Source: Oerskovia merdavium (GTDB lineage: Bacteria; Actinomycetota; Actinomycetes; Actinomycetales; Cellulomonadaceae). Taken from it: a DNA stretch of 64,000 nt. Under the pieces are notes generated by a model, which saw only the letters and a list, made by a program, of their open reading frames with translations, was not told the origin of the DNA and ran no database searches. The stretch is from assembly GCF_014836755.1 (NCBI RefSeq), contig NZ_JACSQF010000002.1:1-64000 (forward strand), read 5' to 3'. Of the stretch, positions 28,982-30,488 are shown in pieces; the stretch's first letter is position 1, and each line of letters opens with the position of its first letter. The translations under genes and the position numbers were made by a program.

Positions 28982-29006
28982 GGCTCCGCCTCGTCCGCGC
29001 GTTGCC

Positions 29007-29040
29007 AGGACCAGCGTGACCTTGAGGTCACGCTGGTCCT
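29007..29040 (+). terminator. intrinsic terminator of the phosphate operon
   Basis: AGGACCAGCGTGACCT (29007-29022) pairs perfectly with AGGTCACGCTGGTCCT (29025-29040) around TG, extended by one outer C-G pair, followed by GCTGTTTCC. The core GCGTGACCT/AGGTCACGC is shared with the palindrome at 22773. Confidence 0.85.
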
Positions 29041-29058
29041 GCTGTTTCCGGGGGATCA

Positions 29059-29104
29059 GTTGTCAGAACTGAGCCGGGGGATACCCGGGTGTGCTTCTGA
29101 CAAC
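29059..29104 (+). repeat. 46-bp palindromic repeat, copy 1
   Basis: Begins GTTGTCAGAACTGAGCCGGG and ends GTGTGCTTCTGACAAC. Outer arms GTTGTCAGA/TCTGACAAC are a perfect 9-bp inverted repeat (10 with the flanking A/T) and the inner CCGGG/CCCGG forms a second stem. It lies 18 bases after the phosphate-operon terminator. Confidence 0.9.
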
Positions 29105-29143
29105 TTTGCTGGTGATGTGGCCTGACCGACGTTGCACTGCTTG

Positions 29144-29189
29144 GTTGTCAGAACTGAGCCGGGGGATACCCCGGTGTGCTTCTGACAAC
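29144..29189 (+). repeat. 46-bp palindromic repeat, copy 2
   Basis: Identical to copy 1 except for one base in the centre (ACCCCGG instead of ACCCGGG). It starts 85 bp after copy 1 and its last base is the first base of the complement of the DUF559 gene's stop codon, so gene and repeat abut exactly. Confidence 0.9.
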
Positions 29190-30142
29190 TACGCGGAAGT
29201 CTCCTGCGCTGCCGACCCGAGATGGTGCCGGAGGATGTCGTAGACCCGGTCCGGCTCCAACCGGACGGCACCAGCAGGGACCCTGACGACGATGTCCCGC
29301 CTGCTCGCGTCGAGCTCGGCCGTGCGCAACAGGTCCTCGTACCAACGGTCCGGATCGCTGTGGCCGATCCCGTCGACCTCGACCACCAACCGACGCCCGT
29401 CGCGGAGCCGCCACTCGATGTCGAGGTAGCGCTGGCGTCCCTGCGAGTCCTTGCGTCGCGCCTGCCGTTCAGGGGCGGGCAGGTCGCGCTCGCGGCAGAA
29501 CCTGATGAAGTCGATCTCGGCCAAGGACTGCGAACCGCCGGCGATGTCGACGAGCGAGGTGCGCATGACGCTCCGGAAGCGGACGGCGCCCACCCGATCG
29601 AGCTGTTCGAAGAGCTCGTCGGTCGTGGCCAGCCCCTGCTGGACGGTGGCGGCGAGCAGACCGACGGCGGTGCGGGGGTGTCGTTGCCACGCAGCTGCGT
29701 CGACCGCAGCGCGCGGCGCCGTGTGGACAGGGAGCCCGAGGAACGGACGGATGTCCTCGGGCGCCGGGCGGCGAGACTCGTGGACGACGACGGCGGAGAC
29801 TCGTGGGGGCCTCGCCCCACGAGCGACGACGATGTGGATCCCCGGCCGGGTCCAGCCCGTCAGCCCGCGCATCGACAGTGCGGACCACGAGCCGATGGCG
29901 ACCGTCCCCTGTGCGCTCAGCACCGCGATCCATCGCCGGGCCGGCTCGGTGACAGGGCCGTTGTGAAGCAGGACGACATCGCGGGTTGCGAGCGTCCACC
30001 GTCGCGCAGCCAGCTGTGCGCTCACGTGGTCCCAGGAGACGCCCAGCCCCCGCAGCTGCTTCCGGGTCACCACTCCTTCCTGGTAGTGGTTGATCCGGTG
30101 CAGGCCCGGGACTGACTCCAACGCGTCCGACGTTCCGCTCAT
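29189..30142 (-). CDS. AbiEi-like winged helix plus DUF559 (Vsr/PD-(D/E)xK nuclease-like) protein
   Basis: A 317-residue protein. The N-terminal part (INHYQEGVVTRKQLRGLGVS, RRWTLATRDVVLLHNGPVT) matches the AbiEi-type winged helix found in abortive-infection antitoxin-like proteins. The C-terminal ~110 residues are DUF559, a restriction-endonuclease-like fold: YLDIEWRLRDGRRLVVEVDG gives the expected acidic residues (D, then E-x-D), preceded by AEIDFIRFCRERDLPAPERQ. Whether it cuts DNA is unproven. It is bracketed by two pairs of 46-bp palindromic repeats in opposite orientation. The ATG at 30142 has no clear ribosome binding site. Confidence 0.85.
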   Translation of the reverse strand: MSGTSDALESVPGLHRINHYQEGVVTRKQLRGLGVSWDHVSAQLAARRWTLATRDVVLLHNGPVTEPARRWIAVLSAQGTVAIGSWSALSMRGLTGWTRPGIHIVVARGARPPRVSAVVVHESRRPAPEDIRPFLGLPVHTAPRAAVDAAAWQRHPRTAVGLLAATVQQGLATTDELFEQLDRVGAVRFRSVMRTSLVDIAGGSQSLAEIDFIRFCRERDLPAPERQARRKDSQGRQRYLDIEWRLRDGRRLVVEVDGIGHSDPDRWYEDLLRTAELDASRRDIVVRVPAGAVRLEPDRVYDILRHHLGSAAQETSA

Positions 30143-30260
30143 GCCGGGGATTCTTGGCGGCCGCGACGTCGGGCGTCAGGGGGGACGCGGTCGTCTGTGG
30201 ACGAAGGACGCAGTGAGTGCGCGGTGCACGCCGTCGAACGGTGCGATTCCACCGCCGCCG

Positions 30261-30306
30261 GTTGTCAGAGCTCGCCCGGGGTATGGCCCGGCTCAGTTCT
30301 GACAAC
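30261..30306 (-). repeat. 46-bp palindromic repeat, copy 3 (inverted relative to copies 1-2)
   Basis: Reads GTTGTCAGAGCTCGCCCGGG ... GCTCAGTTCTGACAAC on the + strand. Its reverse complement aligns over the full 46 bases with copies 1-2, starting with the same GTTGTCAGAACTGAGCCGGG. It lies 119 bases upstream of the DUF559 start. Confidence 0.9.
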
Positions 30307-30353
30307 TGGAGCGGGTGAGCTGGGGATCACTGGGGTGCTCCGCCTGGGCATGA

Positions 30354-30399
30354 GTTGTCAGAGCTCGCCCGGGGTATGGCCCGGCTCAGTTCTGACAAC
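30354..30399 (-). repeat. 46-bp palindromic repeat, copy 4 (inverted relative to copies 1-2)
   Basis: Identical base for base to copy 3, starting 93 bp after it. With copies 1-3 it defines a 1341-bp unit (29059-30399) with doubled inverted ends. Confidence 0.9.
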
Positions 30400-30432: not shown

Positions 30433-30488
30433 TCCGAGCTTCCGAGCTTCCGAGCTTCCGAGCCTCCGAGCCTCCGAGCCTCTGGGCT
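30433..30488. repeat. 8-bp tandem repeat, TCCGAGCY x6 plus one degenerate unit
   Basis: Three TCCGAGCT, three TCCGAGCC and a degenerate TCTGGGCT in perfect 8-bp register, in the non-coding gap after the MutT1-like gene's 3' end. The rest of the 30143-30557 gap holds repeat copies 3 and 4 and no gene. Confidence 0.9.

Follow-up and report, generated by a model that had tools for sequence, protein, structure and literature searches.

A predicted AbiEi–PD-(D/E)XK nuclease gene framed by dispersed palindromes in Oerskovia and related actinobacteria: evidence for a probable REP-like system with an unrelated enzyme

A nuclease-like gene between four palindromes

Why should a single nuclease-like gene be enclosed by four copies of a short palindrome, two on each side and in opposite orientations? 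This question arises from a 64,000-nucleotide stretch of the Oerskovia merdavium genome (contig NZ_JACSQF010000002.1, positions 1 to 64,000), here called the window. The initial annotation proposed either a mobile cassette with double inverted ends or a REP-like system built around a DUF559 nuclease. Its description of four 46-bp copies sharing GTTGTCAGA/TCTGACAAC ends was confirmed in coordinates, lengths, identities and orientations. The locus comprises the following features:

29001..29046, plus strand: probable decayed fifth palindrome copy (GTTGCCAGGACCAGCGTGACC...), of a palindrome type that is intact in the G043 and G059 lineages
29059..29104, plus strand: palindrome copy 1, downstream outer
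29144..29189, plus strand: palindrome copy 2, downstream inner; shares its last base with the stop codon of the gene
29189..30142, minus strand: gene P0001 (ORF and translation, 317 aa), with an AbiEi-type N-terminal half and a predicted PD-(D/E)XK (Vsr/DUF559-like) C-terminal nuclease
29213..29545, minus strand: predicted PD-(D/E)XK nuclease domain, about residues 200-310 (invariant active site, AF2 model, weak DUF559 match, 3hrl profile match)
29585..30106, minus strand: AbiEi-like DNA-binding half, residues 13-186 (PADLOC AbiEi profile, Foldseek AbiEi folds)
30261..30306, minus strand: palindrome copy 3, upstream inner; in inverted orientation to copies 1 and 2
30354..30399, minus strand: palindrome copy 4, upstream outer; same sequence as copy 3

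All four copies have the structure GTTGTCAGA-N28-TCTGACAAC and are exactly 46 bp long. Copies 3 and 4 are identical and a single base differs between copies 1 and 2, while the two pairs match each other at 81-83% in inverted and at only 70-72% in direct orientation. The ends read TGTCAGA, and GTAG is absent from the window palindromes. A scan for the end pattern gave no match in 100 dinucleotide shuffles of the window. The stop codon of the gene (29189-29191), described earlier as touching copy 2, indeed overlaps the last base of that copy.

From reading the sequences of its neighbours, we take the gene to be flanked by a phosphate permease gene (pit) at one end and by NUDIX/SixA and polyphosphate kinase genes at the other. 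Directly behind the pit gene, positions 29006-29041 form an inverted repeat, and thus a hairpin, within 29001-29046. Intact counterparts of the latter segment exist (GTTGTCAGAACCAGCGTGACC... in G059), and sister genomes contain its sequence at further places; the segment is probably a decayed fifth copy, belonging to the palindrome type of the sister species. A short 8-bp tandem run of TCCGAGCT/TCCGAGCC units lies directly outside copy 4 (30433-30488).

An AbiEi-like half joined to a predicted nuclease

In the ORF list of the window, P0001 is the one plausible candidate between the palindromes. The PADLOC AbiEi profile matched its residues 13-186 (E=6.8e-20), and the top Foldseek matches were the AbiEi antitoxin 6y8q and Rv2827c (1zel). 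For the C-terminal half, an alignment of 45 homologues with identities down to about 23% revealed invariant residues E209, D241, E255, D257, H261, D270 and R273. The AF2 model had a mean pLDDT of 86.8, and a profile match to the endonuclease-like 3hrl was obtained (E=0.008). Pfam DUF559 itself scored 12.7 bits, below its cut-off of 20.6, so the nuclease assignment rests on the conserved residues, the alignment and the fold. This qualifies the DUF559 label of the initial annotation. The protein retains a complete set of PD-(D/E)XK active-site residues and is predicted to be a nuclease. Its relatives match Pfam AbiEi_4 and REase_MTES_1575, and no HUH domain was found in P0001 by Pfam.

The gene is under purifying selection, with dN/dS values of 0.08-0.16 in four homologue pairs, and a 97%-identical copy is present in Oerskovia enterophila. 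Proteins of the AbiEi plus PD-(D/E)XK family of Actinomycetes occur in 241 of 297 sampled genomes, often in seven or more copies. A contig search with one protein alone returned only two relatives, and tblastn found no family relatives on plasmids. The genomes G202 and G248 of genus g39 each hold at least 11 family matches, with matched palindromes at both loci inspected there (L262 and L242). The number of such genes in this genus is thus very large.

Pairing of gene and palindrome across the family

The association between gene and palindrome was assessed with a pairing score, in which the left palindrome of a gene shares an arm with its right palindrome. Three short loci (L159, L162 and L165) were removed as artefacts of overlapping flanks, and gapped local alignment of flanks was discarded because the alignments ran on into homologous genes and low-complexity stretches. 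At 67 of 113 homologue loci from the class Actinomycetes the gene had matched palindromes to its left and right, versus 0/113 in far flanks (1-1.5 kb) of the same loci. Sliding windows (0/564) and flanks swapped between loci (2/486) served as further nulls. The remaining 46 loci, including the three other DUF559 genes of the source genome, failed the strict pairing test. In a phylum-wide search 4 of 24 usable loci passed, two of which are themselves class members; pairing is thus hardly seen outside Actinomycetes. Palindrome density was highest within 300 bp of the gene ends.

Other homologues carry other palindromes (TGTCAGTAC, TGTCAGGAC, CGTCCGCACTC, CTCTGTTTCTCAGG, GCGATTGGGCCCG, CCGAACAGGCGG and more), the GAACGAGCGTGACC and CGTCCGCACTC types being those of other lineages. 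Similarity of palindromes followed similarity of proteins (Mantel r 0.467; maximum of 2000 permutations, 0.082). The Mantel set consisted of 97 hand-listed loci from which some failing loci without palindromes were omitted, an omission that has no bearing on the correlation among palindrome-bearing loci; the unbiased pairing count is the 67/113 given above. Even within one genome, paralogues are about 28-51% identical and have unrelated palindromes, as illustrated by L140, L167 and L170, three paralogues of one genome with three different matched pairs. The pairing of the palindrome with the gene family is thus specific, and every gene lineage has a palindrome of its own.

These data bear on another reading of the locus, that ordinary transcription terminators or chance palindromes surround an unrelated gene. 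The palindromes do follow stop codons, as terminators would. Yet no T-run was found 3' of the window palindromes, the units have a fixed length and shared ends, and the palindromes co-vary with the protein. The reading is already contradicted by the pairing nulls, the Mantel test and the far-flank control, and we regard it as extremely improbable.

The source genome also contains a distant second family member (L166, C7:11310-12248). It has a single in-frame TAG and lies between copies of a palindrome of its own (CGAGCATGCGGTTGGCG...), which is decayed on one side.

Dispersal of the window palindrome type

A search of the whole genome and its relatives, as the initial annotation had proposed, found 9 exact copies of the 46-bp palindrome in the source genome and 89 exact copies with GTTGTCAGA ends across 200 family genomes. 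Copies with the 7-base ends numbered 11 in the source genome and 58 in O. enterophila, and all those listed are of exactly equal length. Some source-genome copies lie at gene ends, and one is inside a histidine-kinase gene. Exact GTTGTCAGA-end palindromes were present in 16 of the 200 genomes, 10 of which carry a close homologue of P0001 (p about 3e-6, Fisher), and 77 of the 89 copies fall in genomes with such a homologue. Three genomes (G002, G131 and G140) hold 2-4 exact palindromes each without a close homologue. Three observations had been named in advance as speaking against a link: a repeat found nowhere else, a repeat spread with no tie to the gene, and relatives that hold the gene without repeats. 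Each was looked for and none was found.

Copies of the window type have conserved ends and a conserved CCGG block, while five middle positions per arm vary independently. Pairing within copies in the variable arm was not above that in shuffles. A conserved full hairpin was therefore dropped for this type, since the arm middles lack within-copy co-variation. Judged from the aligned copies, the conservation pattern is more in keeping with a protein that recognises two half-sites than with a strict hairpin. Nearly perfect palindromes are found in other types, among them that of G104. Many window-type copies have an ACTGATC-like extension on one side only, which could mark orientation. One O. enterophila site (site E) is empty in three relatives.

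A small tandem palindrome group lies beside a cell-wall hydrolase-like gene in both the source genome (L012, 8676-8857) and O. enterophila (L191), where the spot by the hydrolase-like gene contains about 2 kb of extra DNA. Furthermore, the source genome holds 20 exact copies of a second dispersed palindrome family, GAGCACGAGGTTGCGG...CCGCAACCTCGTGCTC, of which all listed copies are exactly 53 bp (e.g., C3:36243-36295 and C46:119487-119539). No nuclease gene was found beside the 10 copies examined (L265-L274). This family is similar to the palindromes around the broken paralogue at C7:11310.

Recent copies and empty sites

We used BLAST to search 20 lineage palindromes against their own 20 genomes and obtained matches in all 20, with 5-65 match rows each (both strands counted). 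Among the matches listed, a genome held its own type, except for a few related genomes such as G087 and G104. In G104, 20 sampled copies were nearly identical over ACG-TGTCAGACGTACAGGTCACCCGAGGGACCTGTACGTCTGACA-CGT and had unrelated flanks, which indicates a sharp-ended unit. These recent copies measure about 46-48 bp; none of the 20 lies within a predicted coding ORF, and 18 lie beside a stop codon. The palindrome is thus a discrete unit of about 46 bp that exists in many copies.

Several of the G104 sites are empty in sister species, some carry the same unit and some another palindrome type. At the G104 site L278 and its counterpart L317 in a relative, unrelated palindromes occupy the same intergenic site, which suggests a shared site preference among different palindrome families. 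The insertion edges are blurred in most alignments, and no consistent or clean target-site duplication was seen in the insertion-site alignments examined. Of the two hallmarks that the initial annotation had suggested looking for, empty sites and target duplications, the first was therefore found and the second was not.

The placement of these copies also bears on whether P0001 is an autoregulated AbiEi-type regulator, with the palindromes as operators of its own expression and the dispersed copies as its regulon. In its favour are the resemblance of the N-terminal half to AbiEi, the position of one palindrome pair upstream of the gene, and the fact that AbiEi and Rv2827c both repress their own promoters via 23-bp inverted repeats (PMC7319586). 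Against it, matching palindromes lie downstream of the gene as well, the 20 recent G104 copies are species-variable and mostly past stop codons, and the nuclease active site is invariant. Moreover, no AbiEii-type toxin ORF was found between the palindromes in the window. We consider this explanation unlikely.

The gene stays at one locus

The gene occupies an orthologous locus with the same neighbours in four Oerskovia species (G000, G023, G043 and G059), with protein identities of 57-97%, and in the genomes examined each palindrome type goes with a single gene. Three relatives without the gene have at most one intact palindrome each. In G085, where the gene is absent, palindrome remnants alone separate the two neighbour genes, as expected from gene loss.

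If gene and double inverted ends transposed as one cassette, the solo palindromes would be scars of that movement. Such a cassette would accommodate the inverted framing of the gene, the G085 remnants at a site without it, and homologues that are widespread and often multiple per genome. However, the constant gene locus together with the G085 remnants argues against a transposing cassette. Paralogues at about 28-51% identity with different palindromes are not recent copies, the solo units have exact ends and are not gene remnants, and target duplication is lacking from the alignments. Membership among transposon cassettes was rejected, as neither near-identical gene copies at several sites nor a target duplication was found. 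The cassette proposed in the initial annotation is not supported: the gene is single for its type, it keeps the same neighbours in four species, and only the palindromes disperse. We now judge it quite unlikely. Palindromes disperse while the gene stays put.

A further reading is a defence or selfish nuclease whose palindrome is a self-tag or target, in a homing-like or toxin-like manner, and spreads via break repair or selection of the tag. The AbiEi homology to a phage-defence family, the intact Vsr-like nuclease residues and the large paralogue sets with private palindromes agree with such a role. However, no modification enzyme or toxin partner adjoins the gene in the window, and the copies are species-variable and freely lost, which a required tag would not be. 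We hold this reading to be very unlikely.

Proposed mechanism

There is strong support for the REP-like reading of the initial annotation: copies of the palindrome are dispersed, their occurrence over 200 genomes is tied to that of the gene, and other family members have palindromes of their own. The best explanation, which we believe to be probably correct, is a REP-like system with an unrelated enzyme, in which the nuclease binds its own palindrome and drives its dispersal. We infer that the enzyme cuts and mobilises the palindrome. A resident, vertically inherited gene encodes a two-part protein, of which the AbiEi-like half would bind the palindrome. AbiEi binds two 23-bp inverted repeats as two monomers (PMC7319586), and since the unit here measures 46 bp, two monomers on the two inverted 23-bp halves of each palindrome are a reasonable and probable arrangement. 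The nuclease half may then cut at or beside the palindrome, and repair or strand transfer would place new copies of it between genes, mostly right behind a stop codon. The paired framing palindromes would keep enzyme and substrate together and may also permit loss of the gene by deletion.

Whether this extends to the whole family is, in our estimate, an even question: its members may largely be palindrome-dispersing nucleases, each paralogue propagating a private palindrome of about 40-60 bp, so that the REP/RAYT lifestyle would have been reinvented with different chemistry. The findings suggest that there is a class of tiny mobile DNA that is widespread, served by an enzyme of its own and as yet undescribed.

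Comparison with known systems

A close parallel is the REP/RAYT system (TnpA-REP, 'REPtrons'), in which a palindrome-framed resident nuclease gene is accompanied by dispersed copies (PMC8266576, PMC3733652, PMC2817692). Both share a single resident nuclease gene framed by palindromes, often as inverted pairs, many dispersed non-coding copies that lie mostly downstream of genes, and a palindrome type that tracks the gene lineage. In contrast, the enzyme here is predicted to combine AbiEi with PD-(D/E)XK, whereas RAYT is a HUH Y1 transposase that recognises and cleaves its palindrome in single-stranded form. The palindromes have no GTAG tag, the units are about 40-62 bp long compared with 20-40 bp in REP, and the copy numbers in the genomes counted are in the tens as opposed to hundreds. 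Since the defining RAYT enzyme and tag are absent, the system is not a member of REP/RAYT. It is new with respect to the open-access literature, with neither enzyme nor repeat of a known kind and a lifestyle analogous to that of REP/RAYT. The initial annotation knew of no description of such a pairing, and our search of the open-access literature likewise turned up no paper in which DUF559 or AbiEi-nucleases are connected with dispersed palindromes.

With respect to the protein, the AbiE type IV toxin-antitoxin systems (AbiEi, Rv2827c) share the AbiEi fold of the N-terminal half. They differ in that a predicted nuclease domain follows this half here, no toxin gene adjoins P0001 in the window, and repeats are found not only upstream but also downstream and dispersed. 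Vsr, DUF559 and REase_MTES_1575 proteins share the PD-(D/E)XK fold and active-site pattern; they are described as repair, restriction-like or conflict-system domains, and palindromic repeats are unreported in the papers found.

The analysis offers a specific role for a heavily multiplied, uncharacterised actinobacterial gene family and a source for the scattered palindromes in these genomes. If it is correct, REP-like elements have at least two origins, with enzymes that are unrelated to each other, and one resident nuclease serving many tiny palindromes would be a recurring solution. CGTC-tagged REPs are likewise dispersed palindromes, reported without a known dedicated transposase (Di Nocera 2013, PMC3733652). 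They are described mainly from alpha-Proteobacteria, with stems of 8-9 bp and loops of 4-5 bp, and Actinobacteria are unmentioned (PMC3733652). Some of the palindromes studied here carry CGTC near their ends, and the question is raised whether orphan palindromes such as the CGTC REPs have unrecognised nucleases of the AbiEi plus PD-(D/E)XK kind.
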